64,000 bases of DNA from Muricea muricata (Eukaryota > Cnidaria > Anthozoa > Malacalcyonacea > Plexauridae): assembly GCA_963855995.1 (NCBI GenBank), contig OY979724.1, forward strand, positions 1,372,858 to 1,436,857, read 5' to 3'. This document shows, in pieces, positions 5,041 through 39,389 of the stretch. The notes under the pieces were generated by a model. The model saw only the letters and a list, made by a program, of their open reading frames with translations, did not search any database and had not been told where the DNA came from. The position numbers and the translations under genes are program-made. Positions within the stretch are counted from its first letter, which is position 1. Each line of letters opens with the position of its first letter.

Positions 5041-5044
5041 GAGA

Positions 5045-9222: not shown

Positions 9223-9476
9223 AAATATCTACATACATACAAAATGAAGATCGGTGAAGGAACTTCGCAAAAATATTCATTTTTGTACTTTCGAACGGCG
9301 TTTTTCCTATGCTTTTGACTGAAAACACGACGAACGACACTTGCCAGAGCAATTTGCGTGGCGCGTGGAATGACGTGAGCACGGGGACACAAAAATTGAG
9401 GTTATTGAGTGCGAGTTCCCTATCTGTATATATCTGATCTGTGATACAGCTTCTTCTGAATCAGGAACAAGGAACT

Positions 9477-9998
9477 TGCTCGGAGCATAGACAATCAATA
9501 GAATGGACTGGAAACGCAAGCTAAAGTGTCAATGTTGCTGACGCGACATCCGTGATACGGCCTGATATGCTATACTTTGGAACCCTGTTACTTCACTTTA
9601 AATATACTTCAGGACTTTCTATTTACATATTTTAAACAAGAACGGCAATCTCTAAGGAACTATCGACTTTTAAAATTCTTTATGGACATAACAAAGCTAA
9701 AACCCAACGCTGAATGTTTGCATTCTTTTTGACTGCAGAAATGTCGCCATTGTTGTTGTTGAAAAAGGTTTACGGAAACATTAAATGGTGATTTTCCGCC
9801 TCGTTTATCTCTCTGAAAAGTTTTAAAAGCCGATAGTTCCATTCACATCTCTGTTCTTGTTTAAAATATGTAAATACGGAGTCCTGAAATGTATTTAAAG
9901 TGAAGTTACAGGGTTCCAAAGTAAAGCGTATCACGGATGTCGCGTAAACTTTAGCTTGCGTTTCCAGTCCATTCATTAGATTGTCTATGCTCGGAGCA
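9477..9998. mobile_element. 500-bp MITE with 11-bp TSD, left arm only
   Basis: The element spans 9488-9987 and begins TAGACAAT and ends ATTGTCTA. Long inverted ends of about 180-200 bp include GAATGGACTGGAAACGCAAG. It is bracketed by an exact 11-bp repeat TGCTCGGAGCA (9477-9487, 9988-9998). The right arm carries the uninterrupted single site near 38041-38051. Long TIRs with a 9-11-bp duplication are the habit of Mutator-like (MULE) elements, so I infer a non-autonomous MULE. Confidence 0.8.
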
Positions 9999-10651
9999 TG
10001 TCGACACAAAGTGGTAGTTTCGGCGTTCCTCGGAATTCGTCGGTTTCCGACGCTGCTCGAAGATGTTCCGAATACTATTTTTTCAAAATTTTTCTCTAGC
10101 TCGAAGATTTTGCTCCTTGAAAGTCCTCTAAATTTTCATGCATCCTAACTTTGTTTTAAGGTAATATGCTTTATTTTCTATCATTATTTGTAGCAAAGTA
10201 CTTAGATTGTGCATAGAGATCGATTTTTGAGAGATCAGACTGGAAATAAGTACAATTTTCGAGTATTGTAAGTTTGTGCTTTCCAAGCATGGCTATGGTC
10301 GCATGTAAGATTAAGGCTACCGTTTTCAGTTGAAGTTGGTTCGATAATAATACCATGAAATCCGCTATAGAAACTGAATGAGGTCTTGAATTGTTGAGAT
10401 TGTCGAAGAAAGTATGCTGAGACAGTTCTATGTATAGAGTTGGTTCTGGTTCAAATTTATTGAAAAAAGGCAATTTAATTTTAATTTTGTGAATTTCGAT
10501 TACAAAACATGCCTTGGACTGTCGACCAATTGATTTCGTCAGGCGATTACAGACTTGTGAGAGGAGGGGGGTAGCCTAATTACTAAAATGTAGTGAAAAA
10601 AGGACTTTCCATCTAATGGTGCGAGCAGGTTGGCGGGAACACTGGAGAATA

Positions 10652-11082
10652 AAGGTCCTGTCACAATGCAATTTTTCTTGCAACTTGAAATGCAATTCTA
10701 CTATTGGGAGATGTAAAATTGGCAAATGCAAGTTTCCATCACAGTTTGCTGGGGTTTTTTAACGTACCAAACATTTGTCACAAATTTACTTGAGAGTAGA
10801 TTTTCCCTGTAGCAAAAAAGATGGCAAATGTCGATTTTACCAGAGTGCATGGCAGTCTGAAATTGTTTAAAAAGGCAAATTAACGTCTTTTGAAGAACAG
10901 ACAGAAGACAATAGGTTATTTTCACACTTGTGTTAAAATTTCAATCCTGTAGCTTTGTTTCTTGTCATCTTTTCCCACGTATTCTTTCTTGATACCTGCA
11001 ATGCATTCTGGTAAAATCGACATGTCGCCATCTTTTTTGCTACGGTGAATGCAAGGAAAAGTGCACCGTGTGACAGGGCCTT
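10652..11082. mobile_element. MITE with AAGGYCCTGTCAC termini (left arm)
   Basis: Starts AAGGTCCTGTCACAATGC and ends GTGTGACAGGGCCTT. Inside are two inverted copies of a segment containing AAAAAGATGG and GTAAAATCGACAT. Mirror copy at about 36958-37388. The same termini occur at 46781-46992 and as a single end at 52447, so it is a dispersed family. Confidence 0.7.
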
Positions 11083-14000
11083 AAGGGTAAGAGGTGGATA
11101 GAGAAGGAGACGGAGCAGGATGTGGGAGTCGTGCAAGGTCGGGGAGGTTAAAAAAGAACAAGGAATGTTATGTTTTTAATGCCTTTTAGACTTTTCTTGA
11201 GGCAATTAAAATTCAAACTGTCAAATCCAAACACTGTACAGAATGGCCGACTTTACGTGGTCTTTAGTTTTTACACAACCACTTGCATTGTTATCTTTTG
11301 CAGTTTGTTTACCATTTCAGTTATCTATCTTCAATAGAATTCTTTGAAATTTGTTTGTAGATCGACAAAATGCTTAACCTCCTCTCAACAACTGGCAGAT
11401 TATGAAAAATGAAATTGTTAAAGGTATTGGAATATTGCATGTACAATATTGAATATGGGACAATTTGGGACAGTATAATTTTGGACATGACGGTTTCATT
11501 CTCACCTAATTTGACGATTATTTTGTGGGTACACATACCGTGGAATCTCATGTGCTCCAGAAGCATTTTAATCTTAGAAAAAGTCAAATAATGATGAACT
11601 GTGTTTTAAAAGAAAGTTAGAATCTTATTTGGTTCAAATCAATTGAATTATGGCCCAAGAGTTCATGAAAACACATACAAAAGGCTTTCTTAAAAAACTG
11701 AAATATCAAATCTAGCAATTTTATATGTTATGCCTCTAAACAACACAATTCTGTTTCTAAAAATTGGTACCCTACTAGACCTATATGCATGATTATACTA
11801 ATTTGGACATATTTATTTTTACCCATTAAAATATAAATTTGTGTTTAATCATTCGTGTTTGTCATTATTTGACTTTGTAATGTTGGTTAAACATAAGGAG
11901 ATTGAGGTGACTTTGCCAGAAACAAAAACATCCATTATTATACTAAAATTTCAATATATGTAGCAATTAAAACTAACCACAGGAAATATATTTCTACTTT
12001 TTAATTGAAATGTTTCTGTTATATGCACTATATCATATTTTTGATAAAAAATTACAACACCTATGTTATTTCCTGGTTTACTATCTCAATCATCTTTTGT
12101 TTAAGCTGGCTTTGAGTGTTCATTTGAAAGTTTGGAAAGTTCATTTGAAAATCACAATAGTTCTCAATGTTATATTGGACCCTTTAAAGTTAAAAAAATA
12201 CTTTGTAATATTTTATACTACTGGTAATTTATCTTAGATACAGACTTTGTGATTTTGTACTAGAATGTTGACTTTCAAACTTTAAGATGAACTACTTATT
12301 AAGGACAAAATAAGCTAGCATATTGTCTTTTGTTTACAAAGTGGAACTTGTTTGGAATTGAGATGAACTGATGCAGTTGTTCTTTAACTTTATCAATTAA
12401 TTACATATCTTAAATGAAAAAGAAAACCACAACTTGCCAAATAAATTCTGTGGGCTCTTTTTATTAGCAAAGAAAAGATGTGGCGGATGTAAGAATTTAA
12501 GAGTAAAAAAGTTTCCTTGGACTAAAAAAATTGACAGTATGCCAGATTTTCTAGATAAACAAGCAGTACAGATGTTGGCCAATAATAAGTATAAGTAACT
12601 ACAATTTTTAATTTTAAAAGTTTTCTATTGATGCCTGGATACAGTAAATACTTTACCAGAGTTCTTCGTATTACATCAACTTGAAAAAGTTTTAAGTCAC
12701 ATGAAGCTTTTAGTTGATACTATGCAATTTCAAATTTTACAGACTTCTTAATTAACATGCCAAATTTACCTTGTTGAACATAAGGTCTTTCCTGAGAAAA
12801 AGTAAAACTGTCTGGCATTATATGGAGTAGAATAATTTAAATTAGTTTGAGACTTTGATTTGATAACAATTTTGATTTGTACTATTTACAATACAAGTGA
12901 CCGGGTTGTATCGGATATACAAACCCAAGCTGAAGGCGAGATATCTGACATACACAGATGCGAATGTTGTAAATGGCTTGTGAAACTCGTCAATTTTATA
13001 CATCAGATCTATAGCAAAGTGATTTTGAAAATACCGATTCTGTAAGATGAGAAAATGATTTCTTTTGTGTTTCCTGTATGATTTATTACTTTATAAGTTT
13101 CTTAATTAAAATTACAACATATTGCCTACTGGAACTTTTTATATTGTTTGGTTGTGGTGAATTTGTATTTTGGCAATTGAAATATTTCTGAATTTGTATG
13201 TGCATTTCCTTTGCTTCAGTTCAAGTTTACATTTCAAATATTCCACTTTGTAATACTTGCGTGGTAATAATAATATCAGAAAACAGGTTTACATGGCTCT
13301 TGAATATAGTCTTTTCAACAAGTAAGTAAAGGTGAATTTATACTTCAAAGAGATATGTTCCTAACCTGACAATGGTACCTTCCAAAAAGACTAAATTTAA
13401 ATTGATTCTTCGAATAAATTTTTTACTTTTCAATCCAAGATCAATCTAAGTTATGTATTTCTACTTTTATTTTGGTCTCTTTAACACTGAAACTATCAAT
13501 TGTATATAAAGCAACTTCACTATCGAGTGACTTCATTAGTTGCTGGGCAAAGCCAAAGCATTGATTTTTCGGCTGTTTTCAATGAAAAATAGAATTTTGC
13601 CCAAAGTTATCTCAAATAAATTATCACAATTTGAACAAAAAGCTTCTGTTCTTGTGCCCACCAGAAAAATGAGATGTCTGAGACTTTCTTTGTATTTTTT
13701 TGCGAAAAATAGATCGCATGCACTGTTATGCAAAGAAAAGTGTAAGAGATTGGTTTCTGAAAAATGTCGTGCTACACACAATATTCTAAAAATGCTTGGT
13801 TTTTATTCTATGTATTTTTGAATTTTTTGTTAAAAAAAATAAAGGTAGCAATGTTTAGTGCATTTCACATTGTCAGGTTAGAAACGCAATAAGAAAAATG
13901 TGGCTCCGAACATTACAGCTTGGTCAATTTGGAATTTATAAAAAAATCGTTTCTTCGTTGTTTTTCGACGTTTTGAAGGGTTGTTTCGAGTACAAAAAAG

Positions 14001-14160
14001 TATTTTTAGGAAGAATTATGTGCCCACGTTACATGTCTCAAAGCCATCAAAATTCGTTGGTAATTCGTGCATGTATTTTTTCTGACTTATAAAAGCACAA
14101 TTGATTAAAAATGATATTTTTCTTTTGACAAAAATACCTTTTTTCTGTGAGGCTGGCTGT
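11083..14160. other. Left-arm non-coding stretch
   Basis: AT-rich sequence. The frames at 11321-11587, 13536-13781 and 13540-13821 are under 95 codons. They are present in mirror form in the other arm because the DNA is duplicated, and they resemble no known protein. Overlapping open frames on both strands here argue against coding use. Confidence 0.45.
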
Positions 14161-14270
14161 ATTTGAAAAAGCGTTGGTCAACGCTCCGCCAAAACTCGTG
14201 GGTTTTCTCCGGGTACTCCGGTTCTTCCCACTGGGAGAGTTGACAGGGTAGTTACATATGGTTATAAAAA
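14150..14270 (+). repeat. SINE-body-like segment (GGGTACTCCGGTT)
   Basis: Contains CGTGGGTTTTCTCCGGGTAC followed by TCCGGTTCTTCCCACTGGGA. The same GGGTACTCCGGTTT word occurs in the tRNA-like element at 20490-20640, which suggests both derive from one SINE family. Mirror copy at about 33700-33815. Exact ends are unclear. Confidence 0.4.
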
Positions 14271-14733
14271 TGTGACTAACTTTTGAAAACCTTTCTACTT
14301 AGACTTGTTAAGCCTTCTCGTCATCTCTATCAGTTGCATGTTTTGAGCCACATGTTTTTCTTTGTAATTGTGAAACAACTCGTTATATGCTGGGTAAACC
14401 TTTGCAAAACTCTCAAAATTTATCACTTCAAGTTGTTTCATTGTTATAATATATTTTGAAGTATAAACATTTACTTACGTTGAAAAGACCCAAGTTTTTT
14501 AGGACTTTGTTCATTCACTTGTGTTATTGTTCTCTCTGCCATGTTCTGTTTTCTTCTGTTGTTATTTTAATAAGTACAATGTGTGGTAGTTAATCTCTTT
14601 TTATTGTTATTCAAATTGTATGTAATCTTTACAAATTTTTTCAATAAATTGTTTACAAAATTTACTTGTGACCCCTTTTTAATTAAAAATTCAATTCCCA
14701 TGGGAATTGAGAAATTGAATAAAAAAAATCCCC

Positions 14734-14851
14734 CTACCCCGGCCAGCTCCCAAAGTGCCACTTCCACCTAAGTAGAAGTACTTATACATGTAGTACAAGT
14801 ACTTCTACTTATTCACGGTGGAAGTAGCACTCGGAGAACTGGCCGGGGTAG
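14734..14851. repeat. 118-bp palindrome, left arm
   Basis: CTACCCCGGCCAG at the left pairs with CTGGCCGGGGTAG at the right. The arms run inward through TCCACCTAAGTAGAAGTACT and its complement, with a nearly central TACATGTA. Imperfect only at a few bases. Mirror copy at 33116-33233. Confidence 0.75.
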
Positions 14852-15685
14852 CCGGCAAAGAGAAGACCAACTTTGCAAGTGCTAATACAATTGCTAAGTT
14901 GATCTTCCCTAGAGAGCAGCCGCGCGTACCTAACAAATTAAAACAACAAACGTTAGTGACTTAAGTACTTAGCATGCAAATTTGATTCCCAAAGCCAAAA
15001 TGTCAAGTGCCCCCCGCTGATCCTACCAACTGCCTACCTGCCTCAGTTCTAAGCTGTCTTCCTCAGTTCTAAGCTCCTGCATTCCATTCGTTACCTTCAC
15101 TTTCCTCACCATCGCACAGTCACTCACAGCTGATAAACCCGCATGCACCACCACCACCCCGACTGCCACCCAATTTCGAAAATTAAAAGAGTTAAAATTT
15201 CGGTAAAGTATGCATTTTAAATGCAATTTATTTGGATATTTTAGATCAAACGTAAACAGAAAAAGCTCGTACATAAAAACAGGTGAGAATTCTATTTAAA
15301 ATTTGCTTGCAAAATATAAAACTTAATTCGCATTTTTCTTAGTTAATAGTATAGATCAATTTAGTTGATGTTGAAACCTACTCTTAACTGTTTTGTTAGA
15401 AGTGACGACAGATTTTGGTTTTTAAGCATACTTTCAAAAATTTTAATTCCTTTAATAAACCTAACCCCATGCAACTTACACACGGCGCACACCCTCGCAG
15501 TCCATACATTTAGCTAATAAATTACGTTATAAACAAAAAAGCAAAATAAAAAGATAAATTACGTTATCTCTAGCTACTTAAACCCACTTAGACTGAGTTT
15601 TTGATTGAATTTTCAAACGTAAAACCTTAGCTGAATGGGCATGGGCTTTTCGTTGTGTTAACTGTTCCGGAGTAAATATAAACCT

Positions 15686-15927
15686 GGGGCCGGTTGTATC
15701 AAAGGCGTTTAGCTTAAACGGTGGATAAGTGAAATTTAAAAATCAGTTTTACACCTAGTACGGAACCGAAATTATGAGTTGAAATAGAATAAATATTTAG
15801 TTTTATATATAATTGTTCTTCTCAGGTCAAATAACTTCAGCTGGTTTGTTTATACAACATGGAAACGTGTTTCATATTTTTGACTTATCCACCGTTTAAG
15901 CTAAACGCCTTTGATACAACCGGCCCC
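15686..15927. mobile_element. MITE with GGGGCCGGTTGTATCAAAGG termini (left arm)
   Basis: Terminal inverted repeats of about 45 bp: GGGGCCGGTTGTATCAAAGG followed by CGTTTAGCTTAAACGGTGGA, inverted exactly at the other end. The interior is about 150 bp of AT-rich non-coding DNA. Mirror copy at 32040-32281. Confidence 0.8.
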
Positions 15928-16129
15928 TGATACTTACCAAAGTCCAAGGCTGGGTCAAATAAGCATGAGAATTAGGCAAAAATAAAAAGCAATTGAAACT
16001 CAACAGATTCACTAAAGTTGTTTTTTTTTTTTTGGCAACTTATATCCTTAAGTGTAGATGACATGCAATTTTTAATGCCGTAATTCTCACACTTATTTAA
16101 CCGAAACGCCTTCATTTGCATGGTACCTC

Positions 16130-17600
16130 GCAGCTGCTCTCAAACCACCTTCGTAATTTGCTTTAGTGTACACAAACAATGACTTCATTGTTCCTGCTTA
16201 CCAAAACAAATCTGAAAGCACCAAGATACTTATCATATTAATAATCAAAGAGGATTCGCATTATGCAGTAATTACCATAAACAGACGCATCACCATTGAA
16301 ACAAAGCATGCCGTATTCCCATGGGAATTTAAAATGCACAAAAAAATATAATGATCCTACTGATTTGCATGGATGTATGAACCAAATTAGCTAAGAAACA
16401 AAGAAATGATATATTCCCTTGGGAATTTAATGTAGCAAAAAGATGGCGGGTGTTGATTTTACCAGAATGCCTTGCGGTCTGAAATCGTTTAAAAACTTAA
16501 GGTAAATTAACCTCGTTTGAGGAACAGACAGATAGGTTATTTTGTCACTTGTGTTAAAATTCCGTCCATTAGCTTATGTTAAATATCATTTCACTGCTAT
16601 TCTTGATTGATACCCGCATTAAATTCTGGTAAAATCGACATGCCACCATCTGTTTTGCTACGGTGAATTGGAATACAAGTCACATTTTCTCGCTTTTTAA
16701 CCAGAGAACACATTCTTTAAAGGTAGAACGACGGAATTGATCGTTTGCAATCGACGCCATCTTTGTTGACGTTTGAAACACATGGCAACCACAAAGTATC
16801 TATTCATTATATCTGATCCTATCGAGCCATACATCTTTAAAGTATCATTCATAATACGCTAAAACTAACGATGAAATAGTAAATTGACACTAGTGTTTCG
16901 CTGTAAACAGCTGAAGTAATCTGCAGAGTCAACCAAGATGGCGCCCAATCACACGAAATGACGTCATGTGCAAACCAAGAATAGTGACAAAATGCATCAA
17001 CTATAATTTAGTGGCATTATTACGAAACTTATTTTTGTAAAACGTTCAATCCTACATGTTATTTTGTTTTGTTTTTAGAAATATCCAAATCCAAATGTTA
17101 GAGACGAAATTTCCAGGCGTTAAGGTATTGTTTCTTTAAAAAATATTGTCGACATTTACCATATTTTTACCTGTTTTTTGACTCGAAAATTGACTGCCAA
17201 ACTCCTAGATATTCTATTTAATTATTTTGTTGAATGTATTTGATATCAATGTTATTTCAATCCAATTTTTTTCACTTAATTTGCTGTCTTTTCTTTTTCA
17301 TTAACGAGAAATATCTATTAAATCCTCTTTGATCCCTCAATAATAAGTATCTTGTTTTCTACTAACTTGCACATTACCACTACTTTCTATTACAATGTCG
17401 TGTTTTCTTATTCTTGTGGATTGTTGTTTTGTGGGTCTTGCCGTCCAGGATCGTTCATTCTTTTCTCTTCTTGTGCGTTTTTTTCACATCCCATCACCCT
17501 TTGCAATAGTAGAAAGAATTAAGTCATGAGATGATAGTTACGAATAATTTATAAACTATAACATGATAAGTTTCTTGTACGTTTGCATGGTGAATACAAT
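16130..17600. other. Left-arm non-coding stretch with repeat relics
   Basis: Includes two inverted short segments around 16430-16680 (AAAAAGATGGCGGGTGTTG against CCACCATCTGTTTTGC) related to the interior of the AAGGYCCTGTCAC MITE, and a TTCCCATGGGAA word twice. The 61-codon frame at 16166 shows no family. Confidence 0.4.
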
Positions 17601-17601
17601 A

Positions 17602-17687
17602 TACTTATTAAGCTTTGTGGAAACACCACGTAAATTTATTATTGCAATAATAAATTTACGTGGTGTTTCCACAAAGCTTAATAAGTA
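17602..17687. repeat. 86-bp perfect palindrome, left arm
   Basis: TACTTATTAAGCTTTGTGGA...TCCACAAAGCTTAATAAGTA is self-complementary with no spacer around the central ATTGCAAT. Mirror copy at 30280-30365, so four identical half-sites exist in the window. Confidence 0.9.
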
Positions 17688-18057
17688 AACTATAGCATAT
17701 TAAGCACTTATTGGATGAGGTTTTTGTGATATGCGAAATGATCAATGTCGAGGTAAGAGTTATCAGCCGAGCCGAAGGCGAGTCAGATAACTCTTACCAA
17801 GACATTGATAATTTTGCATATCACAAAAACCGAATCCGATAATTGCTTTATTATACATTGTAAGTCTTTTTCCTCGAGCAATTGACGAATTTCGCCTTCG
17901 GAAGAGCTTAAAAAGCAAGATGCCATAACATGAAACAGAAAATATCGAAAAAATGTTGTTGCCATGCCAACCATTGATGCCAACGAATACCGCATACTGT
18001 AATAATCTGCACCGTAGGCTCAACATGCAGATAACTCAGTTATCTGCTAGCAGATAA

Positions 18058-18292
18058 CTGAGCCATAGAATAAGAATACATAGAAGGGCCACTCGCGTCG
18101 GAGCCTTTGGAGTTTTTGAAGCCGCGCATGTCGCATTACGCACGTTATTAGCATTTTCTCAGCCAGTCAATTGCATTTTCTGGCCAATAGGAATGCTGAA
18201 CTGGCTGGTGGCAGCCAGTAAACTGCATAAACATAGTGTGACATGTTGCACTGCTGAGTGGCCCTTCTATGTATTCTTATTGTATGACTGAG
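18058..18292. mobile_element. Nested MITE in a larger repeat (left arm)
   Basis: Ends CCATAGAATAAGAATACATA (18063) and TATGTATTCTTATTGTATG (about 18286) are inverted copies including GAAGGGCCACTC. ACTGAG or CTGAG flanks both sides. A third copy of the surrounding repeat at 44690-45062 lacks this 224-bp segment and keeps a single intact site, so the insertion is demonstrated by an empty site. Confidence 0.75.
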
Positions 18293-18381
18293 TTATCTGC
18301 AGATTGTGTGATAGTCGCATTTATCTGCATACAACTGACCAATCACAACGCATAAAACAACTGCAATGTATAGTAATTAAC

Positions 18382-18487
18382 ACTTATTGACTGAGACCGA
18401 GGGAAACAGTATGTTTTGTGGACCAGAGACTGTCGATGTCGAGGGTCCACAAAACATACTGCTTTCCCGAGGTCTCAGTCAATAAGT
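18382..18487. repeat. 106-bp near-perfect palindrome, left arm
   Basis: ACTTATTGACTGAGACC pairs with GGTCTCAGTCAATAAGT and ATGTTTTGTGGACC with GGTCCACAAAACAT, around a short AGAGACTGTCGATGTCGAG loop. Mirror copy at 29480-29585. Confidence 0.85.
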
Positions 18488-18489
18488 AT

Positions 18490-19386
18490 TTTATTATATA
18501 CTGAGTGCCAAAAGAGAAGAAAAGTACCACAAATCAATCAAACATGTGTAAAAAGGATTACCTTTTACCTGACATGGCTACGTGAGGCTTTGTGGATTTG
18601 TTGTCTACCGGTGAATAAAAGTAATGTCCACCGCTTAGCTACGTTGCCAGGGAGACAATAGAATTTCTCCACTATCACGTGATACGTTCTTAACCAATAA
18701 GAAACAGGAATAAATGAACTTTGACACTCAGTATATTATAAAATAGTATTAATTAGGCCGGCCAAATTATTGTGTAAGCTGTTAATATGAAATTTTTTTA
18801 TTAAAATCTCGAGAATCATTAGTAAATCGTGAACAAAACACAAAAGAAAATCATAGCCGTGAAGGAGTCTTTATTTCTCACACGCACACAACTTGCAGCT
18901 ACCCTAATTTATGATTTTAAATCAAAATATCTCGAGAATTAAACAACACGTAAGGAATGTGTAAATTCTTAAAGCTCTTTCGAACAATAAAAATTAATAT
19001 CTCGCACTAATCTCTCTCAAAAGCTCTCTCAAATTTATTACCAATATCTCTTCAACTATTACTTTGCAGGTGAAATGTAACTTCTATCAAAACTAGCTTA
19101 CTTCAAGCTGTTTGGGAATCAAGATTTTACGTGTCAACGAGATCAAATATGAATCTAAGATGGCAGACAGCGCATTAAATTTCTATCTTTACGACCAACT
19201 CCCCAACGAAAGGCTTTAATTCGCTCGAAAGTCGAATTTTGTTTTTTTTTATTGTTTCAGGTAGTGAAAGATCCTGTGTGCTTTTTACAGTACTACCGAC
19301 ACTGGCAACGTTAGTGCGAGATGTTAATTTTTATTGAAACAAAAGCTGAACTGCTAAAGAAAATAGAAACGACAAGATAAAATCAA
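18490..19386. other. Left-arm non-coding stretch
   Basis: Includes two ATCTCGAGAAT-type words and a TCTCTCAAAAGCTCTCTCAAA stutter near 19012. No coding, RNA or transposon boundary can be supported. Confidence 0.4.
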
Positions 19387-19870
19387 AAAACTTACTTTCA
19401 CTCTATCTTTGGATCTTCTTGGCTTCGGTTGTTCTCGTTTCATCATGCTGTTTATGGTTTCATCTGGTTGGCGCACTCTCTTCATGGAGCATCAAGGCGG
19501 TCCAGTAGGTAACTAGCTCACTCGTGTCCAGTCAACCAACATAAAATAAGGAGAAAATTAATGTTACAAAATATTTTAGAATATAGGACACTAAGCTTTA
19601 ATTGAATTGACTTTAACAAACCGTACATTGTGATAGTATTTGCATCTTAACATCTGATGGAGACGGCTTGTGATTTACTTCTTATGTCGATATGAATTCT
19701 TTCCCATCTTGTTGCGTCATTAGTTGATGGTTGTTGTATTCACTTTTTACTTGGCATTCTTTGAAAAAAAAATTACGATGTTCAGAAAACTGTTTACAAG
19801 ATAAGCAAAGAAAACTACGTTCACAAGCATTAGAGAGGACTAAGTAATTATAATAGGCGTGACAGGTCAC
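19387..19870 (-). repeat. Exon-like dispersed repeat, left-arm copy
   Basis: On the minus strand a run reading GATGAAACCATAAACAGCATGATG then continues about 55 bp to AGTGAAAGTAAGT, a strong splice-donor match, as if copied from a spliced gene. Further copies: 7060-7215 (+), 28430-28575 (+), 39786-39935 (-). Upstream conserved words are CTTTGCTTATCTTGTAAACA and ACAAGATGGG. The short frames differ between copies and none is conserved, so the copies are not expected to code. Confidence 0.6.
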
Positions 19871-20420
19871 AGAGGTTAGTCGACGAAGAAACTCATGGAC
19901 AAATTCCCGGCATGATGATATTCCGATAGCAAGAAGTACAGCAAGTGTAGAACGTGTACGTGTAAGCTTAAACTGTATCTATGCAACTCCAAGAAAAGCG
20001 CAACACAAAATGGCGGAATTTAAAGACATTTCTGGTGTCATTTCCAGTTCCCTAACTTTCGCGGACAAATATATTTATATATTTTTCTCAAATTTTTTTG
20101 AAGTAAATCTAGATGGATTTTGTGAATAAACAAATTGAAAAAAGTATTGCCCACGTTAGGAAACTAGAACGGGCGCCCAAGAATGCCCACAATTTCTCCA
20201 ATCTGGATTATATTTATTGATTGCGCAAATGACTGATAAAAAATAAGAGAGTAATAAAATACCAAATGGTTTCCTCTTCAAGATAGTGTCATACATGCGC
20301 GCGGCATTTCGGGATATTTGGGAAAACTCATGTTGAAGTTGAACCTAAGGCAACATGCCAAGTACATGGATGACGCTATCCTGCTCAGGAAACTATTTAG
20401 TAATTGTCTTACAAAATGAT

Positions 20421-20746
20421 TACAGTGAAACACAAGTCAACGCCACGGCATTTAAATTTCTCGTGTAGGATTGTTTGATCCTGCACAGTAATAGCCAAGT
20501 GGCGCAATCGTCAGAGCAAACGCCTATCACATGTGAGGTCGTGGGTTCAATCCTTACTTCAGACTCGTGACACCCATGTGAGGAGTTAGTCAGTCGTGGG
20601 TTTATCCCGGGTACTCCGGTTTGCGAATGTTGACTGGACGGTTAAAATTGTAAAATATCAGTAATCACCGGAACACGGGTACTTAACTAAACTGCTGACG
20701 ATGAGGCGGAACTCATAATGAATTAATGAAAATGTGTTTCACTGTA
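20421..20746. mobile_element. Tc1/mariner-like MITE carrying a SINE (left arm)
   Basis: TA at 20421-20422 is followed by CAGTGAAACACA, and the other end is GTGTTTCACTG (20744) then TA. TA duplication plus short TIRs is the Tc1/mariner pattern. A tRNA-derived segment lies inside at 20490-20640. Mirror copy at 27221-27546. Confidence 0.65.
20490..20640 (+). repeat. tRNA-derived SINE-like segment (left arm)
   Basis: An A-box-like TGGCGCAATCGTCAGAGC is followed about 40 bp later by B-box GGTTCAATCC (20544-20553) with a GTCGTG lead-in, as in a tRNA gene. The body continues GTGGGTTTATCCCGGGTACT then CCGGTTTG, the motif also seen at 14198. An acceptor stem cannot be closed, so it is a SINE head rather than a working tRNA. 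Confidence 0.55.
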
Positions 20747-22380: not shown

Positions 22381-22387
22381 CAAATAT

Positions 22388-22470
22388 CTTTCCCTCCGTG
22401 GCCGAGAGGTAAAGACAACTGTCTTGACTTCGATTTTGGGTGGATCGAGGACCGGTCCAGTTCAACTGAG
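22388..22470 (+). repeat. tRNA-like head (A box GTGGCCGAGAGG)
   Basis: CCGTGGCCGAGAGGTAAAGA resembles the A box of class II tRNAs (Leu/Ser), and a weak B-box-like GGTGGATCGAGGACC follows at about 22439-22453. No acceptor stem closes. Probably a SINE relic. Mirror copy at about 25495-25580. Confidence 0.35.
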
Positions 22471-22669
22471 TTTGGTAAGAATTTAATTCTGATCGGTGCT
22501 CGATCCACCCAAAACTGAATTCAAAGCTGGGCGTGGAGTGCAGGAAAACACTAGGCAGTACCGCGAGGCCAAGGAGGCAAACGTTATTTTCCTAGTGTTG
22601 TTAACTAATATTTAAGCAAATTTCATTAACTTGACTGTTGGGGACAGACCTGTAGGGTTGGTGCATTGA

Positions 22670-27220: not shown

Positions 27221-27546
27221 TACAGTGAAACACATTTTCATTAATTCATTATGAGTTCCGCCTCATCGTCAGCAGTTTAGTTAAGTACCCGTGTTCCGGT
27301 GATTACTGATATTTTACAATTTTAACCGTCCAGTCAACATTCGCAAACCGGAGTACCCGGGATAAACCCACGACTGACTAACTCCTCACATGGGTGTCAC
27401 GAGTCTGAAGTAAGGATTGAACCCACGACCTCACATGTGATAGGCGTTTGCTCTGACGATTGCGCCACTTGGCTATTACTGTGCAGGATCAAACAATCCT
27501 ACACGAGAAATTTAAATGCCGTGGCGTTGACTTGTGTTTCACTGTA
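27221..27546. mobile_element. Tc1/mariner-like MITE carrying a SINE (right arm)
   Basis: Mirror of 20421-20746, with TA-flanked CAGTGAAACACA ends. The tRNA-derived segment lies on the minus strand at about 27327-27477. Confidence 0.65.
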
Positions 27547-28099
27547 ATCATTTTGTAAGACAATTACTAAATAGTTTCCTGAGCAGGATAGCGTCATCCA
27601 TGTACTTGGCATGTTGCCTTAGGTTCAACTTCAACATGAGTTTTCCCAAATATCCCGAAATGCCGCGCGCATGTATGACACTATCTTGAAGAGGAAACCA
27701 TTTGGTATTTTATTACTCTCTTATTTTTTATCAGTCATTTGCGCAATCAATAAATATAATCCAGATTGGAGAAATTGTGGGCATTCTTGGGCGCCCGTTC
27801 TAGTTTCCTAACGTGGGCAATACTTTTTTCAATTTGTTTATTCACAAAATCCATCTAGATTTACTTCAAAAAAATTTGAGAAAAATATATAAATATATTT
27901 GTCCGCGAAAGTTAGGGAACTGGAAATGACACCAGAAATGTCTTTAAATTCCGCCATTTTGTGTTGCGCTTTTCTTGGAGTTGCATAGATACAGTTTAAG
28001 CTTACACGTACACGTTCTACACTTGCTGTACTTCTTGCTATCGGAATATCATCATGCCGGGAATTTGTCCATGAGTTTCTTCGTCGACTAACCTCTGTG

Positions 28100-28575
28100 A
28101 CCTGTCACGCCTATTATAATTACTTAGTCCTCTCTAATGCTTGTGAACGTAGTTTTCTTTGCTTATCTTGTAAACAGTTTTCTGAACATCGTAATTTTTT
28201 TTTCAAAGAATGCCAAGTAAAAAGTGAATACAACAACCATCAACTAATGACGCAACAAGATGGGAAAGAATTCATATCGACATAAGAAGTAAATCACAAG
28301 CCGTCTCCATCAGATGTTAAGATGCAAATACTATCACAATGTACGGTTTGTTAAAGTCAATTCAATTAAAGCTTAGTGTCCTATATTCTAAAATATTTTG
28401 TAACATTAATTTTCTCCTTATTTTATGTTGGTTGACTGGACACGAGTGAGCTAGTTACCTACTGGACCGCCTTGATGCTCCATGAAGAGAGTGCGCCAAC
28501 CAGATGAAACCATAAACAGCATGATGAAACGAGAACAACCGAAGCCAAGAAGATCCAAAGATAGAGTGAAAGTAA
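28100..28575 (+). repeat. Exon-like dispersed repeat, right-arm copy
   Basis: Mirror of the copy at 19387-19870. From about 28493 the frame beginning ATGCGCC-adjacent CCAACCAGATGAAACC runs open and basic to a GTGAAAGTAAGT donor-like end near 28571. Resemblance to a spliced exon is inference from the donor match alone. Confidence 0.55.
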
Positions 28576-29479
28576 GTTTTTTGATTTTATCTTGTCGTTT
28601 CTATTTTCTTTAGCAGTTCAGCTTTTGTTTCAATAAAAATTAACATCTCGCACTAACGTTGCCAGTGTCGGTAGTACTGTAAAAAGCACACAGGATCTTT
28701 CACTACCTGAAACAATAAAAAAAAACAAAATTCGACTTTCGAGCGAATTAAAGCCTTTCGTTGGGGAGTTGGTCGTAAAGATAGAAATTTAATGCGCTGT
28801 CTGCCATCTTAGATTCATATTTGATCTCGTTGACACGTAAAATCTTGATTCCCAAACAGCTTGAAGTAAGCTAGTTTTGATAGAAGTTACATTTCACCTG
28901 CAAAGTAATAGTTGAAGAGATATTGGTAATAAATTTGAGAGAGCTTTTGAGAGAGATTAGTGCGAGATATTAATTTTTATTGTTCGAAAGAGCTTTAAGA
29001 ATTTACACATTCCTTACGTGTTGTTTAATTCTCGAGATATTTTGATTTAAAATCATAAATTAGGGTAGCTGCAAGTTGTGTGCGTGTGAGAAATAAAGAC
29101 TCCTTCACGGCTATGATTTTCTTTTGTGTTTTGTTCACGATTTACTAATGATTCTCGAGATTTTAATAAAAAAATTTCATATTAACAGCTTACACAATAA
29201 TTTGGCCGGCCTAATTAATACTATTTTATAATATACTGAGTGTCAAAGTTCATTTATTCCTGTTTCTTATTGGTTAAGAACGTATCACGTGATAGTGGAG
29301 AAATTCTATTGTCTCCCTGGCAACGTAGCTAAGCGGTGGACATTACTTTTATTCACCGGTAGACAACAAATCCACAAAGCCTCACGTAGCCATGTCAGGT
29401 AAAAGGTAATCCTTTTTACACATGTTTGATTGATTTGTGGTACTTTTCTTCTCTTTTGGCACTCAGTATATAATAAAAT

Positions 29480-29585
29480 ACTTATTGACTGAGACCTCGG
29501 GAAAGCAGTATGTTTTGTGGACCCTCGACATCGACAGTCTCTGGTCCACAAAACATACTGTTTCCCTCGGTCTCAGTCAATAAGT
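29480..29585. repeat. 106-bp near-perfect palindrome, right arm
   Basis: Mirror copy of 18382-18487. Confidence 0.85.
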
Positions 29586-29674
29586 GTTAATTACTATACA
29601 TTGCAGTTGTTTTATGCGTTGTGATTGGTCAGTTGTATGCAGATAAATGCGACTATCACACAATCTGCAGATAA

Positions 29675-29909
29675 CTCAGTCATACAATAAGAATACATAG
29701 AAGGGCCACTCAGCAGTGCAACATGTCACACTATGTTTATGCAGTTTACTGGCTGCCACCAGCCAGTTCAGCATTCCTATTGGCCAGAAAATGCAATTGA
29801 CTGGCTGAGAAAATGCTAATAACGTGCGTAATGCGACATGCGCGGCTTCAAAAACTCCAAAGGCTCCGACGCGAGTGGCCCTTCTATGTATTCTTATTCT
29901 ATGGCTCAG
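29675..29909. mobile_element. Nested MITE in a larger repeat (right arm)
   Basis: Mirror copy of 18058-18292, flanked by CTCAGT on both sides. The homologous repeat at 44690-45062 has the empty site. Confidence 0.75.
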
Positions 29910-30279
29910 TTATCTGCTAGCAGATAACTGAGTTATCTGCATGTTGAGCCTACGGTGCAGATTATTACAGTATGCGGTATTCGTTGGCATCAATGGTTGG
30001 CATGGCAACAACATTTTTTCGATATTTTCTGTTTCATGTTATGGCATCTTGCTTTTTAAGCTCTTCCGAAGGCGAAATTCGTCAATTGCTCGAGGAAAAA
30101 GACTTACAATGTATAATAAAGCAATTATCGGATTCGGTTTTTGTGATATGCAAAATTATCAATGTCTTGGTAAGAGTTATCTGACTCGCCTTCGGCTCGG
30201 CTGATAACTCTTACCTCGACATTGATCATTTCGCATATCACAAAAACCTCATCCAATAAGTGCTTAATATGCTATAGTT

Positions 30280-30365
30280 TACTTATTAAGCTTTGTGGAA
30301 ACACCACGTAAATTTATTATTGCAATAATAAATTTACGTGGTGTTTCCACAAAGCTTAATAAGTA
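30280..30365. repeat. 86-bp perfect palindrome, right arm
   Basis: Mirror copy of 17602-17687, identical by eye. Confidence 0.9.
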
Positions 30366-32039
30366 TATTGTATTCACCATGCAAACGTACAAGAAACTTA
30401 TCATGTTATAGTTTATAAATTATTCGTAACTATCATCTCATGACTTAATTCTTTCTACTATTGCAAAGGGTGATGGGATGTGAAAAAAACGCACAAGAAG
30501 AGAAAAGAATGAACGATCCTGGACGGCAAGACCCACAAAACAACAATCCACAAGAATAAGAAAACACGACATTGTAATAGAAAGTAGTGGTAATGTGCAA
30601 GTTAGTAGAAAACAAGATACTTATTATTGAGGGATCAAAGAGGATTTAATAGATATTTCTCGTTAATGAAAAAGAAAAGACAGCAAATTAAGTGAAAAAA
30701 ATTGGATTGAAATAACATTGATATCAAATACATTCAACAAAATAATTAAATAGAATATCTAGGAGTTTGGCAGTCAATTTTCGAGTCAAAAAACAGGTAA
30801 AAATATGGTAAATGTCGACAATATTTTTTAAAGAAACAATACCTTAACGCCTGGAAATTTCGTCTCTAACATTTGGATTTGGATATTTCTAAAAACAAAA
30901 CAAAATAACATGTAGGATTGAACGTTTTACAAAAATAAGTTTCGTAATAATGCCACTAAATTATAGTTGATGCATTTTGTCACTATTCTTGGTTTGCACA
31001 TGACGTCATTTCGTGTGATTGGGCGCCATCTTGGTTGACTCTGCAGATTACTTCAGCTGTTTACAGCGAAACACTAGTGTCAATTTACTATTTCATCGTT
31101 AGTTTTAGCGTATTATGAATGATACTTTAAAGATGTATGGCTCGATAGGATCAGATATAATGAATAGATACTTTGTGGTTGCCATGTGTTTCAAACGTCA
31201 ACAAAGATGGCGTCGATTGCAAACGATCAATTCCGTCGTTCTACCTTTAAAGAATGTGTTCTCTGGTTAAAAAGCGAGAAAATGTGACTTGTATTCCAAT
31301 TCACCGTAGCAAAACAGATGGTGGCATGTCGATTTTACCAGAATTTAATGCGGGTATCAATCAAGAATACCAGTGAAATGATATTTAAGATAAGCTAATG
31401 GACGGAATTTTAACACAAGTGACAAAATAACCTATCTGTCTGTTCCTCAAACGAGGTTAATTTACCTCAAGTTTTTAAACGATTTCAGACCGCAAGGCAT
31501 TCTGGTAAAATCAACACCCGCCATCTTTTTGCTACATTAAATTCCCAAGGGAATATATCATTTCTTTGTTTCTTAGCTAATTTGGTTCATACATCCATGC
31601 AAATCAGTAGGATCATTATATTTTTTTGTGCATTTTAAATTCCCATGGGAATACGGCATGCTTTGTTTCAATGGTGATGCGTCTGTTTATGGTAATTACT
31701 GCATAATGCGAATCCTCTTTGATTATTAATATGATAAGTATCTTGGTGCTTTCAGATTTGTTTTGGTAAGCAGGAACAATGAAGTCATTGTTTGTGTACA
31801 CTAAAGCAAATTACGAAGGTGGTTTGAGAGCAGCTGCGAGGTACCATGCAAATGAAGGCGTTTCGGTTAAATAAGTGTGAGAATTACGGCATTAAAAATT
31901 GCATGTCATCTACACTTAAGGATATAAGTTGCCAAAAAAAAAAAAACAACTTTAGTGAATCTGTTGAGTTTCAATTGCTTTTTATTTTTGCCTAATTCTC
32001 ATGCTTATTTGACCCAGCCTTGGACTTTGGTAAGTATCA

Positions 32040-32281
32040 GGGGCCGGTTGTATCAAAGGCGTTTAGCTTAAACGGTGGATAAGTCAAAAATATGAAACAC
32101 GTTTCCATGTTGTATAAACAAACCAGCTGAAGTTATTTGACCTGAGAAGAACAATTATATATAAAACTAAATATTTATTCTATTTCAACTCATAATTTCG
32201 GTTCCGTACTAGGTGTAAAACTGATTTTTAAATTTCACTTATCCACCGTTTAAGCTAAACGCCTTTGATACAACCGGCCCC
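32040..32281. mobile_element. MITE with GGGGCCGGTTGTATCAAAGG termini (right arm)
   Basis: Mirror copy of 15686-15927. Confidence 0.8.
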
Positions 32282-33115
32282 AGGTTTATATTTACTCCGG
32301 AACAGTTAACACAACGAAAAGCCCATGCCCATTCAGCTAAGGTTTTACGTTTGAAAATTCAATCAAAAACTCAGTCTAAGTGGGTTTAAGTAGCTAGAGA
32401 TAACGTAATTTATCTTTTTATTTTGCTTTTTTGTTTATAACGTAATTTATTAGCTAAATGTATGGACTGCGAGGGTGTGCGCCGTGTGTAAGTTGCATGG
32501 GGTTAGGTTTATTAAAGGAATTAAAATTTTTGAAAGTATGCTTAAAAACCAAAATCTGTCGTCACTTCTAACAAAACAGTTAAGAGTAGGTTTCAACATC
32601 AACTAAATTGATCTATACTATTAACTAAGAAAAATGCGAATTAAGTTTTATATTTTGCAAGCAAATTTTAAATAGAATTCTCACCTGTTTTTATGTACGA
32701 GCTTTTTCTGTTTACGTTTGATCTAAAATATCCAAATAAATTGCATTTAAAATGCATACTTTACCGAAATTTTAACTCTTTTAATTTTCGAAATTGGGTG
32801 GCAGTCGGGGTGGTGGTGGTGCATGCGGGTTTATCAGCTGTGAGTGACTGTGCGATGGTGAGGAAAGTGAAGGTAACGAATGGAATGCAGGAGCTTAGAA
32901 CTGAGGAAGACAGCTTAGAACTGAGGCAGGTAGGCAGTTGGTAGGATCAGCGGGGGGCACTTGACATTTTGGCTTTGGGAATCAAATTTGCATGCTAAGT
33001 ACTTAAGTCACTAACGTTTGTTGTTTTAATTTGTTAGGTACGCGCGGCTGCTCTCTAGGGAAGATCAACTTAGCAATTGTATTAGCACTTGCAAAGTTGG
33101 TCTTCTCTTTGCCGG

Positions 33116-33233
33116 CTACCCCGGCCAGTTCTCCGAGTGCTACTTCCACCGTGAATAAGTAGAAGTACTTGTACTACATGTATAAGTACTTCTACTTAGG
33201 TGGAAGTGGCACTTGGGGAGCTGGCCGGGGTAG
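33116..33233. repeat. 118-bp palindrome, right arm
   Basis: Mirror copy of 14734-14851; one visible base difference lies near 33217. Confidence 0.75.
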
Positions 33234-36200
33234 GGGGATTTTTTTTATTCAATTTCTCAATTCCCATGGGAATTGAATTTTTAATTAAAAAGGGGTCACA
33301 AGTAAATTTTGTAAACAATTTATTGAAAAAATTTGTAAAGATTACATACAATTTGAATAACAATAAAAAGAGATTAACTACCACACATTGTACTTATTAA
33401 AATAACAACAGAAGAAAACAGAACATGGCAGAGAGAACAATAACACAAGTGAATGAACAAAGTCCTAAAAAACTTGGGTCTTTTCAACGTAAGTAAATGT
33501 TTATACTTCAAAATATATTATAACAATGAAACAACTTGAAGTGATAAATTTTGAGAGTTTTGCAAAGGTTTACCCAGCATATAACGAGTTGTTTCACAAT
33601 TACAAAGAAAAACATGTGGCTCAAAACATGCAACTGATAGAGATGACGAGAAGGCTTAACAAGTCTAAGTAGAAAGGTTTTCAAAAGTTAGTCACATTTT
33701 TATAACCATATGTAACTACCCTGTCAACTCTCCCAGTGGGAAGAACCGGAGTACCCGGAGAAAACCCACGAGTTTTGGCGGAGCGTTGACCAACGCTTTT
33801 TCAAATACAGCCAGCCTCACAGAAGAAAGGTATTTTTGTCAAAAGAAAAATATCATTTTTAATCAATTGTGCTTTTATAAGTCAGAAAAAATACATGCAC
33901 GAATTACCAACGAATTTTGATGGCTTTGAGACATGTAACGTGGGCACATAATTCTTCCTAAAAATACTTTTTTGTACTCGAAACAACCCTTCAAAACGTC
34001 GAAAAACAACGAAGAAACGATTTTTTTATAAATTCCAAATTGACCAAGCTGTAATGTTCGGAGCCACATTTTTCTTATTGCGTTTCTAACCTGACAATGT
34101 GAAATGCACTAAACATTGCTACCTTTATTTTTTTTAACAAAAAATTCAAAAATACATAGAATAAAAACCAAGCATTTTTAGAATATTGTGTGTAGCACGA
34201 CATTTTTCAGAAACCAATCTCTTACACTTTTCTTTGCATAACAGTGCATGCGATCTATTTTTCGCAAAAAAATACAAAGAAAGTCTCAGACATCTCATTT
34301 TTCTGGTGGGCACAAGAACAGAAGCTTTTTGTTCAAATTGTGATAATTTATTTGAGATAACTTTGGGCAAAATTCTATTTTTCATTGAAAACAGCCGAAA
34401 AATCAATGCTTTGGCTTTGCCCAGCAACTAATGAAGTCACTCGATAGTGAAGTTGCTTTATATACAATTGATAGTTTCAGTGTTAAAGAGACCAAAATAA
34501 AAGTAGAAATACATAACTTAGATTGATCTTGGATTGAAAAGTAAAAAATTTATTCGAAGAATCAATTTAAATTTAGTCTTTTTGGAAGGTACCATTGTCA
34601 GGTTAGGAACATATCTCTTTGAAGTATAAATTCATCTTTACTTACTTGTTGAAAAGACTATATTCAAGAGCCATGTAAACCTGTTTTCTTATATTATTAT
34701 TACCACGCAAGTATTACAAAGTGGAATATTTGAAATGTAAACTTGAACTGAAGCAAAGGAAATGCACATACAAATTCAGAAATATTTCAATTGCCAAAAT
34801 ACAAATTCACCACAACCAAACAATATAAAAAGTTCCAGTAGGCAATATGTTGTAATTTTAATTAAGAAACTTATAAAGTAATAAATCATACAGGAAACAC
34901 AAAAGAAATCATTTTCTCATCTTACAGAATCGGTATTTTCAAAATCACTTTGCTATAGATCTGATGTATAAAATTGACGAGTTTCACAAGCCATTTACAA
35001 CATTCGCATCTGTGTATGTCAGATATCTCGCCTTCAGCTTGGGTTTGTATATCCGATACAACCCGGTCACTTGTATTGTAAATAGTACAAATCAAAATTG
35101 TTATCAAATCAAAGTCTCAAACTAATTTAAATTATTCTACTCCATATAATGCCAGACAGTTTTACTTTTTCTCAGGAAAGACCTTATGTTCAACAAGGTA
35201 AATTTGGCATGTTAATTAAGAAGTCTGTAAAATTTGAAATTGCATAGTATCAACTAAAAGCTTCATGTGACTTAAAACTTTTTCAAGTCGATGTAATACG
35301 AAGAACTCTGGTAAAGTATTTACTGTATCCAGGCATCAATAGAAAACTTTTAAAATTAAAAATTGTAGTTACTTATACTTATTATTGGCCAACATCTGTA
35401 CTGCTTGTTTATCTAGAAAATCTGGCATACTGTCAATTTTTTTAGTCCAAGGAAACTTTTTTACTCTTAAATTCTTACATCTGCCACATCTTTTCTTTGC
35501 TAATAAAAAGAGCCCACAGAATTTATTTGGCAAGTTGTGGTTTTCTTTTTCATTTAAGATATGTAATTAATTGATAAAGTTAAAGAACAACTGCATCAGT
35601 TCATCTCAATTCCAAACAAGTTCCACTTTGTAAACAAAAGACAATATGCTAGCTTATTTTGTCCTTAATAAGTAGTTCATCTTAAAGTTTGAAAGTCAAC
35701 ATTCTAGTACAAAATCACAAAGTCTGTATCTAAGATAAATTACCAGTAGTATAAAATATTACAAAGTATTTTTTTAACTTTAAAGGGTCCAATATAACAT
35801 TGAGAACTATTGTGATTTTCAAATGAACTTTCCAAACTTTCAAATGAACACTCAAAGCCAGCTTAAACAAAAGATGATTGAGATAGTAAACCAGGAAATA
35901 ACATAGGTGTTGTAATTTTTTATCAAAAATATGATATAGTGCATATAACAGAAACATTTCAATTAAAAAGTAGAAATATATTTCCTGTGGTTAGTTTTAA
36001 TTGCTATATATATTGAAATTTTAGTATAATAATGGATGTTTTTGTTTCTGGCAAAGTCACCTCAATCTCCTTATGTTTAACCAACATTACAAAGTCAAAT
36101 AATGACAAACACGAATGATTAAACACAAATTTATATTTTAATGGGTAAAAATAAATATGTCCAAATTAGTATAATCATGCATATAGGTCTAGTAGGGTAC

Positions 36201-36845
36201 CAATTTTTAGAAACAGAATTGTGTTGTTTAGAGGCATAACATATAAAATTGCTAGATTTGATATTTCAGTTTTTTAAGAAAGCCTTTTGTATGTGTTTTC
36301 ATGAACTCTTGGGCCATAATTCAATTGATTTGAACCAAATAAGATTCTAACTTTCTTTTAAAACACAGTTCATCATTATTTGACTTTTTCTAAGATTAAA
36401 ATGCTTCTGGAGCACATGAGATTCCACGGTATGTGTACCCACAAAATAATCGTCAAATTAGGTGAGAATGAAACCGTCATGTCCAAAATTATATTGTCCC
36501 AAATTGTCCCATATTCAATATTGTACATGCAATATTCCAATACCTTTAACAATTTCATTTTTCATAATCTGCCAGTTGTTGAGAGGAGGTTAAGCATTTT
36601 GTCGATCTACAAACAAATTTCAAAGAATTCTATTGAAGATAGATAACTGAAATGGTAAACAAACTGCAAAAGATAACAATGCAAGTGGTTGTGTAAAAAC
36701 TAAAGACCACGTAAAGTCGGCCATTCTGTACAGTGTTTGGATTTGACAGTTTGAATTTTAATTGCCTCAAGAAAAGTCTAAAAGGCATTAAAAACATAAC
36801 ATTCCTTGTTCTTTTTTAACCTCCCGACCTTGCACGACTCCCACA

Positions 36846-36978
36846 TCCTGCTCCGTCTCCTCCTATCCACCTCCCACCCTCAAGGCCCTGTCACACGGTG
36901 CAATTTTTCTTGCACTTGTAACTGCTCCGTCTCCTTCTCTATCCACCTCTTACCCTTAAGGCCCTGTCACACGGTGCA
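36846..36978. repeat. 73-bp tandem duplication, right arm only
   Basis: CTGCTCCGTCTCC ... CACGGTGCA occurs twice in a row. The two copies differ at several bases, and the left arm has one copy at the mirror place (about 11065-11125). It accounts for the 73-bp offset of mirror coordinates outside this point. Confidence 0.7.
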
Positions 36979-37388
36979 CTTTTCCTTGCATTCACCGTAG
37001 CAAAAAAGATGGCGACATGTCGATTTTACCAGAATGCATTGCAGGTATCAAGAAAGAATACGTGGGAAAAGATGACAAGAAGCAAAGCTACTGGATTGAA
37101 ATTTTAACACAAGTGTGAAAATAACCTATTGTCTTCTGTCTGTTCTTCAAAAGACGTTAATTTGCCTTTTTAAACAATTTCAGACTGCCATGCACTCTGG
37201 TAAAATCGACATTTGCCATCTTTTTTGCTACAGGGAAAATCTACTCTTAAGTAAATTTGTGACAAATGTTTGGTACGTTAAAAAACCCCAGCAAACTGTG
37301 ATGGAAACTTGCATTTGCCAATTTTACATCTCCCAATAGTAGAATTGCATTTCAAGTTGCAAGAAAAATTGCATTGTGACAGGACCTT
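36958..37388. mobile_element. MITE with AAGGYCCTGTCAC termini (right arm)
   Basis: Mirror copy of 10652-11082; ends AAGGCCCTGTCACACGG and TTGTGACAGGACCTT. Confidence 0.7.
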
Positions 37389-38306
37389 TATTCTCCCGTG
37401 TTCCCGCCAACCTGCTCCCACCATTAGATGGAAAGTCCTTTTTTCACTACATTTTAGTAATTAGGCTACCCCCCTCCTCTCACAAGTCTGTAATCGCCTG
37501 ACGAAATCAATTGGTCGACAGTCCAAGGCATGTTTTGTAATCGAAATTCACAAAATTAAAATTAAATTGCCTTTTTTCAATAAATTTGAACCAGAACCAA
37601 CTCTATACATAGAACTGTCTCAGCATACTTTCTTCGACAATCTCAACAATTCAAGACCTCATTCAGTTTCTATAGCGGATTTCATGGTATTATTATCGAA
37701 CCAACTTCAACTGAAAACGGTAGCCTTAATCTTACATGCGACCATAGCCATGCTTGGAAAGCACAAACTTACAATACTCGAAAATTGTACTTATTTCCAG
37801 TCTGATCTCTCAAAAATCGATCTCTATGCACAATCTAAGTACTTTGCTACAAATAATGATAGAAAATAAAGCATATTACCTTAAAACAAAGTTAGAATGC
37901 ATGAAAATTTAGAGGACTTTCAAGGAGCAAAATCTTCGAGCTAGAGAAAAATTTTGAAAAAATAGTATTCGGAAAATCTTCGAGCAGCGTCGGAAACCGA
38001 CGAATTCCGAGGAACGCCGAAACTACCACTTTGTGTCGACATGCTCCGAGCAAGTTCCTTGTTCCTGATTCAGAAGAAGCTGTATCACAGATCAGATATA
38101 TACAGATAGGGAACTCGCACTCAATCACCTCAATTTTTGTGTCCCCGTGCTCACGTCATTCCACGCGCCACGCAAATTGCTCTGGCAAGTGTCGTTCGTG
38201 GTGTTTTCAGTCAAAAGCATAGGAAAAACGCCGTTCGAAAGTACAAAAATGAATATTTTTGCGAAGTTCCTTCACCGATCTTCATTTTGTATGTATGTAG
38301 ATATTT

Positions 38307-39270: not shown

Positions 39271-39389
39271 GGCAGGCGGAGTGAACGCCTTAGCAGGCGT
39301 CTTGTTGTAAATACGAAGTACTAAATATGAATTTAGTATACTTACCTCTACCAACTATACTATGTATATACTATGTATAGTTAGTGTAC

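Follow-up and report, generated by a model that had tools for sequence, protein, structure and literature searches.

A giant inverted repeat in the octocoral Muricea muricata is probably, at a probability of about 0.6, a real structure of a known kind: a stretch of repeat-rich DNA, seemingly without genes, that was recently duplicated in inverted orientation by fold-back. It lies in a stretch of 64,000 nucleotides of contig OY979724.1 (assembly GCA_963855995.1, positions 1,372,858 to 1,436,857), called here the window, in whose coordinates all positions are given. Both a comparison of the window with itself and a direct alignment of the arms confirmed the inverted repeat. The left arm (9223-23682, plus strand; 14,460 bp, including a 511-bp insertion without counterpart in the right arm) is the reverse complement of the right arm (24258-38306, minus strand; 14,049 bp), and a 575-bp spacer (23683-24257) lies between them.

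Structure and divergence of the two arms

The direct alignment, taken from 9223 to 23681, showed 25 substitutions in 13,947 aligned columns, an identity of 99.82%, together with seven indels, three of them of a single base and the others of 511, 74, 25 and 2 bp. The claim of a near-perfect inverted repeat, made in a first-pass annotation of this DNA, is thereby borne out; its coordinates for arms and spacer also stand, except that the right arm starts at 24258 and the spacer measures 575 bp, not 574. In the self-comparison the arms appeared as four inverted matches: 11050-23477 with 24488-36914 (99.8%), 9988-11118 with 36922-38052 (99.4%), 9223-9488 with 38041-38306 (99.2%) and 23478-23688 with 24250-24462 (97.7%). 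The innermost perfect pairing joins 23644-23682 to 24258-24296 and thus sets the limits of the spacer; mismatches at 23686 and 23688 were left out of the substitution count, since both fall within it. Thirteen of the substitutions are transitions and 12 are transversions, a CpG is present in either arm at 7 of the 25, and they amount to 24 events when the adjacent pair at 22010-22011 is counted once. As to the indels, the 511 bp have no counterpart in the right arm and the 74 and 25 bp none in the left, the others being a 2-bp edge difference and three single-G differences. Matches this long and this alike cannot have arisen by chance.

On the evidence of the assembled sequence, the arms are separate pieces of DNA and not one sequence read twice, since one of them carries a one-sided insertion whose empty site is seen in the other, and since third copies side with either arm. 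The 511-bp insertion (9477-9987) is 74% self-complementary, an imperfect palindrome bounded on either side by TGCTCGGAGCAT, a 12-bp direct repeat; a single copy of TGCTCGGAGCAT marks the empty site in the right arm (38041-38052). P0123, a protein from another contig, reads straight through this empty site, and the insertion is therefore most simply the derived state; we take it to be a palindromic MITE. The 74 bp (36862-36935, end points placeable at equivalent positions), absent from the left arm at 11104, correspond to a single unit of the tandem at 36848-36990 (76 bp x 1.9), and because its units match at 89% a loss from the left arm would be the simplest account. Likewise the 25 bp at 24463-24487, missing from the left arm at 23477/23478, are most simply explained by a left-arm deletion, as a similar stretch exists in the repeat unit B'' described below.

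Third copies also gave a polarity to several substitutions. It is the left arm that has the derived state at 10065 (by comparison with P0123), at 10622 (P0121 and P0122) and at 22010-22011 (P0124 and P0129), and the right arm that has it at 9329 and 10144 (P0123). Position 10643 is mixed, with P0121 showing the left-arm and P0122 the right-arm state. Both arms thus seem to carry private changes, with the polarity taken from dispersed copies that may themselves exchange sequence.

The differences are not spread evenly along the arms. The outer half holds 20 of the 24 substitution events (P 0.0015 by a binomial test), and a substitution-free run as long as the longest one, 5,413 bp, came up in 19 of 100,000 uniform placements; these two are the fairer tests, the regions that follow having been picked after inspection. 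At the outer arm end (9223-11141) there are 9 events in 1,407 aligned bp where 2.4 would be expected under even divergence (Poisson P 0.0009), and the innermost 205 columns hold 3 substitutions where 0.35 would be expected (P 0.006). Between these, 16601-23476 is a candidate homogenised stretch, with a single event in 6,876 aligned bp. Within the inner 6.9 kb this is the sole substitution event, a tandem CC/TT difference at 22010-22011 (right arm 25954-25955), and P0124 and P0129 speak for CC as its older state.

Gene conversion is expected to be weaker near arm ends. The uneven divergence is the pattern that partial arm-to-arm homogenisation would give, and the same pattern would also arise from a patchwork of ancestral variation or from polishing that mixed reads between the arms. 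G+C content is 35.5% in both arms and is not raised above that of the flanks (36.2 and 37.8%), so that the arms bear no mark of long-lasting GC-biased conversion. Judging by the one sequence analysed, conversion between the arms may have kept their inner halves alike. The earlier suggestion of recent formation, arm-to-arm conversion or both holds in the light of the arm alignment and of this uneven divergence.

Genes and dispersed repeats in the arms

Pfam gave no match at an E value of 0.1 or less in any of the six frames of the left arm, a transposase domain included, which upholds the earlier statement that the arms hold no recognised gene. The Pfam searches covered six frames each of three stretches (the left arm, 1-9222 and 38300-42406) and ten single ORFs, six of them in 42407-64000. 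Across the whole window, Rfam yielded no match at gathering scores and ARAGORN found no tRNA. A gene in the arm was considered and rejected: the longest stop-free frame, 134 codons in the left arm minus its insertion, is within chance, this length being reached by 67 of 300 first-order Markov sequences. Matches below the cut-offs were seen in one frame of the left flank (three weak ones), beside the sulfotransferase gene of the right flank (one) and for the ORFs 48918-49250, 40714-41028 and 9773-10135 (several).

Dispersed copies were probed with arm ORFs only, at three places and in a protein collection, which gauges the arm and not whether it is richer in repeats than its flanks. Close relatives on other contigs were found at all three places. 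The outer place (9310-10781) gave three proteins from six candidates; a joined query for the middle (13582-14109) and inner (21804-22279) places gave nine from 20, of which six match the middle place and the other three the inner one; one of these three, P0130, is only 48% alike. Over stretches of tens of residues several of the dispersed relatives reach 98-100% identity. Their clusters count 14, 1 and 1 member sequences for the outer place, 82, 6, 1, 1, 1 and 1 for the middle one and 2, 1 and 1 for the inner one, and their contigs differ in size except for those of P0123 and P0131 (both 830,768 bp). Since P0121 to P0123 track the DNA across different frames, the matches reflect repeats and not a conserved protein. 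From these close relatives on other contigs we conclude that the arm contains young dispersed repeats.

The proposal that the same block be sought at other loci was answered in part: relatives of the arm ORFs occur on other contigs, and DNA-pattern and protein-guided scans of viral and genome contigs returned no relatives. Within the window, relatives in the flanks were seen for 1,986 of the 15,034 bases that arm and spacer comprise. The stretch 10652-11080, presumably a MITE, is repeat-like, ends in GGTCCTGTCACAATGCAA and GTGCACCGTGTGACAGGGCC and has relatives at 16431-16668 and 46781-46938. A small dispersed repeat in the right flank (44684-45081) is related to 17697-18380 of the arm, up to 97% in parts.

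Junctions and origin of the palindrome

Common repeated units, in the same orientation, occur in the spacer and at the arm's inner end. Unit A (22860-23184) recurs in the spacer as A' (23742-24071; 83% identity, same orientation), unit B (23213-23335) recurs as B' (23478-23602; 80% identity, same orientation), and a partial B, termed B'' (24221-24275), lies mostly in the spacer. The longest relative of the spacer within the window is 317 bp long and 84% identical. When B'' was cut at 24268 and compared with B', the score was 27, the best of 5,000 simple letter shuffles reaching 17. The perfect match to the left arm starts at 24258, within B''. Here the 14-mer CGAGCGCCAAGCTT (24258-24271, plus strand) is the exact reverse complement of AAGCTTGGCGCTCG (23669-23682, plus strand), the inner end of the arm, and it differs from B' at one position. 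As background, an exact inverted 14-mer was found 100-2000 bp away at 402 of 24,254 positions of left flank, left arm and spacer (1.7%) and at 297 of 25,694 positions of the right flank. The junction match is thus a coincidence at the 1-2% level, which is suggestive and not proof.

At their outer ends the arms part abruptly, at 9223 and 38306. A comparison of 9190-9226 with 38303-38340 revealed no direct repeat of at least 5 bp, the longest common word being 4 bp, and this junction shows no target duplication and no clear second homology. About 60 bp to the right of the right arm's outer end a 31-bp tandem array begins (38365-38738). Farther out, the matches between 1-9222 and 38307-64000 are confined to repeat-like pieces, which do not exceed 83% over 100 bp. 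One set of these pieces (6821-7536 and 39302-40194) is inverted, 75-83% alike and in mirrored order outside both arms; the others are a direct match (6576-6713 with 41413-41553, 81%) and two shorter ones inside the same stretch. The pieces 6788-7228 and 39728-40222 represent a repeat, as they have a relative inside the arm at 19333-19850; for 7220-7536 and 39302-39645 there was no arm copy among the matches listed. The latter, mirrored in order, could be the worn remains of a longer, older palindrome.

Human inverted duplications provide the model for the reading that we prefer. In the available text of one study of them, all 21 sequenced junctions have a single-copy spacer of 766-70,466 bp, and 16 of the 21 show inverted homology at the spacer end, of 2-8 bp in 13 cases and within LINE or Alu pairs in the other 3; they are explained by fold-back of a broken chromosome (PMC3907307). 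In yeast, according to the portion available of another report, widely spaced and diverged inverted repeats rearrange once exposed as single strands (PMC10164571). The coral locus has a spacer between inverted copies, single-copy within the window, and a 14-bp junction homology if the left arm is the original. Because this junction anatomy is the same as in the human duplications, fold-back appears to be the best account. The spacer units share the orientation of the left arm, and we therefore tentatively regard this arm as the original; relatives of its inner end in that orientation are what would be expected of a spacer once contiguous with it. Were the right arm the original, the junction would be 23682/23683, with an inner homology of only about 4 bp. 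Counting against fold-back are the lack of a clear second homology at the outer junction, a spacer shorter and a position seemingly more interstitial than in the human cases, the mirrored flank pieces, which leave room for an older and longer palindrome, the dispersed copies, which would also suit a mobile element, and the fact that inverted 14-mers are not rare, occurring at 1.7% of positions.

The event may be pictured as follows. The 14-bp match would at the start have been part of unit B'', adjoining the arm. A DNA end or stalled strand would then have folded back, the arm end pairing with B'' and 575 bp being left as a loop, and synthesis would have run back through the arm outward to about 9223. 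Joining to the sequence now at 38307 would have resolved the copy; such an interstitial resolution could have come about by a further template switch, or by joining of ends in which the original right neighbour was lost. Afterwards both arms would have mutated independently, the inner half probably being homogenised by gene conversion.

It is unlikely that the structure is an artefact, whether from a chimeric read that folded back or from two haplotypes or paralogous copies that the assembler joined. Palindromic chimeras are known from amplified libraries and, in the text available to us, are described as common after whole-genome amplification (PMC6218980). An arm identity of 99.8% is within the range of two haplotypes, few inner and more outer differences could result if reads of the other haplotype had lengthened a single folded molecule, and the mirrored flank pieces could be a trace of allelic flanks. 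However, a folded molecule would be identical at its centre, where 3 substitutions occur in the innermost 205 columns and a 25-bp indel borders them; the outer flanks match only in the repeat-like pieces described, and third copies place derived changes in both arms. A haplotype join was rejected as first choice because 1-9222 and the sequence from 38307 onward share only such pieces. Two haplotypes joined by the assembler, named at the outset as what would refute the inverted repeat, are thus disfavoured by the flank comparison, within the assembled sequence.

Quite unlikely is the idea of a giant non-autonomous mobile element with terminal inverted repeats of 14 kb, a single copy of which would make up the entire 29-kb palindrome. 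It could draw on the relatives of arm ORFs on other contigs at all three places probed, one of whose clusters has 82 member sequences, and on P0123 from the outer and P0131 from the middle arm, which may share one 830,768-bp contig. Against it, the arms are flanked by no direct repeat of at least 5 bp, six frames of the left arm gave no Pfam match, and units of the arm's inner end occur in the spacer. Cluster counts, which depend on copies keeping the ORF, moreover vary along the arm, more as in a mosaic of separate repeats. A mobile element with a target duplication was rejected, as the outer ends show nothing of 5 bp or more. We consider it very improbable that two dispersed 14-kb repeats inserted independently, head to head and 575 bp apart; arm pieces are indeed dispersed repeats, but the spacer is related to the arms' inner end and is not unrelated host DNA, and where third copies differ from the window the two arms often agree with each other, P0125 giving one such residue and P0121 two, for instance, as would be expected if the arms had a recent ancestor in common. 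Between the two identities offered by the first-pass annotation, a palindromic duplication is favoured, and a giant fold-back element is unsupported, with no flanking direct repeat and no transposase domain in the left arm; the dispersed repeats in parts of the arm leave the latter some probability.

Related structures, possible roles and neighbouring sequence

Foldback-type transposons have long terminal inverted repeats around a short middle. The coral palindrome differs from them in its far longer arms and in that neither a target duplication nor a transposase was found. In the sections available of Hermetz et al. 2014 (PMC3907307), human fold-back duplications combine inverted copies, a short single-copy spacer and junction homology, as here; those cases are large, were found in patients and accompany terminal deletions or translocations or occur in rings, whereas the coral locus is 14 kb, apparently interstitial, and has a 575-bp spacer, shorter than their minimum of 766 bp. 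Mammalian sex-chromosome palindromes have arms more than 99% alike, as far as the accessible text goes (PMC8981503, PMC3723533), to be compared with 99.82% in the coral. Set against such palindromes, the coral arms have no raised G+C, and no gene families were found in the left arm.

The palindrome needs no function. Transcription across it would produce a long hairpin RNA with matches to dispersed repeats. According to the text available, Mu killer of maize silences its relatives, with a hairpin RNA of about 4 kb from a transposase gene proposed (PMC3440606). As in Mu killer, mobile-element sequence is present here as an inverted duplication, and a hairpin RNA is possible in principle; the coral locus differs in its 14-kb arms and in that no transposase was found, and it is for Mu killer that silencing has been shown (PMC3440606). 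It would be a highly speculative step, taken by analogy, to see in it an animal counterpart of Mu killer, in which fold-back would have made a cluster of young dispersed repeats into a locus coding for a 14-kb hairpin, whose double-stranded RNA would silence matching octocoral repeats genome-wide while arm conversion would keep the hairpin near perfect.

Among the papers listed in searches of the literature, none concerned such a structure in an octocoral nuclear genome, and two dealt with mitochondrial genomes. If real, the locus would be an interstitial fold-back duplication of natural origin in a lineage of animals that branched off early, with junction and seed sequence still readable because it is young. 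Its polarised marks in both arms would then allow conversion to be measured outside mammalian sex chromosomes, and its young dispersed repeats in hairpin form would be a possible source of small RNA against mobile elements.

The window extends 25.7 kb beyond the right arm, and on that side lie a sulfotransferase gene and an RRM gene. The exon ORFs of the former lie between 42407 and 44134 on the minus strand, and all three match PF00685 above the cut-off. Its best named matches come from two octocorals, Paramuricea clavata (62% identity) and Dendronephthya gigantea (60%), in line with an octocoral source, and another match is 64% alike over 88% of the query. The RRM gene (60372-60833) was identified by a profile match, and we take it to resemble SRSF2. 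A second inverted repeat (40425-40749 and 40992-41316), with 325-bp arms that are 99.1% identical around 242 bp, lies 2.1 kb from the right arm. The ORF at 40714-41028, with one Pfam match below the cut-off, is presumably the GIY-YIG end of a Penelope-like element. To the left of the palindrome, 1351-2451 and 2587-3687 form a direct repeat of 1,101 bp (98.0%), about half of which is a AAGATCTTAC-like tandem array, and an array of partly self-complementary CTCTAGTCTAC-like units occupies 7569-8720, about 500 bp outside the left arm.
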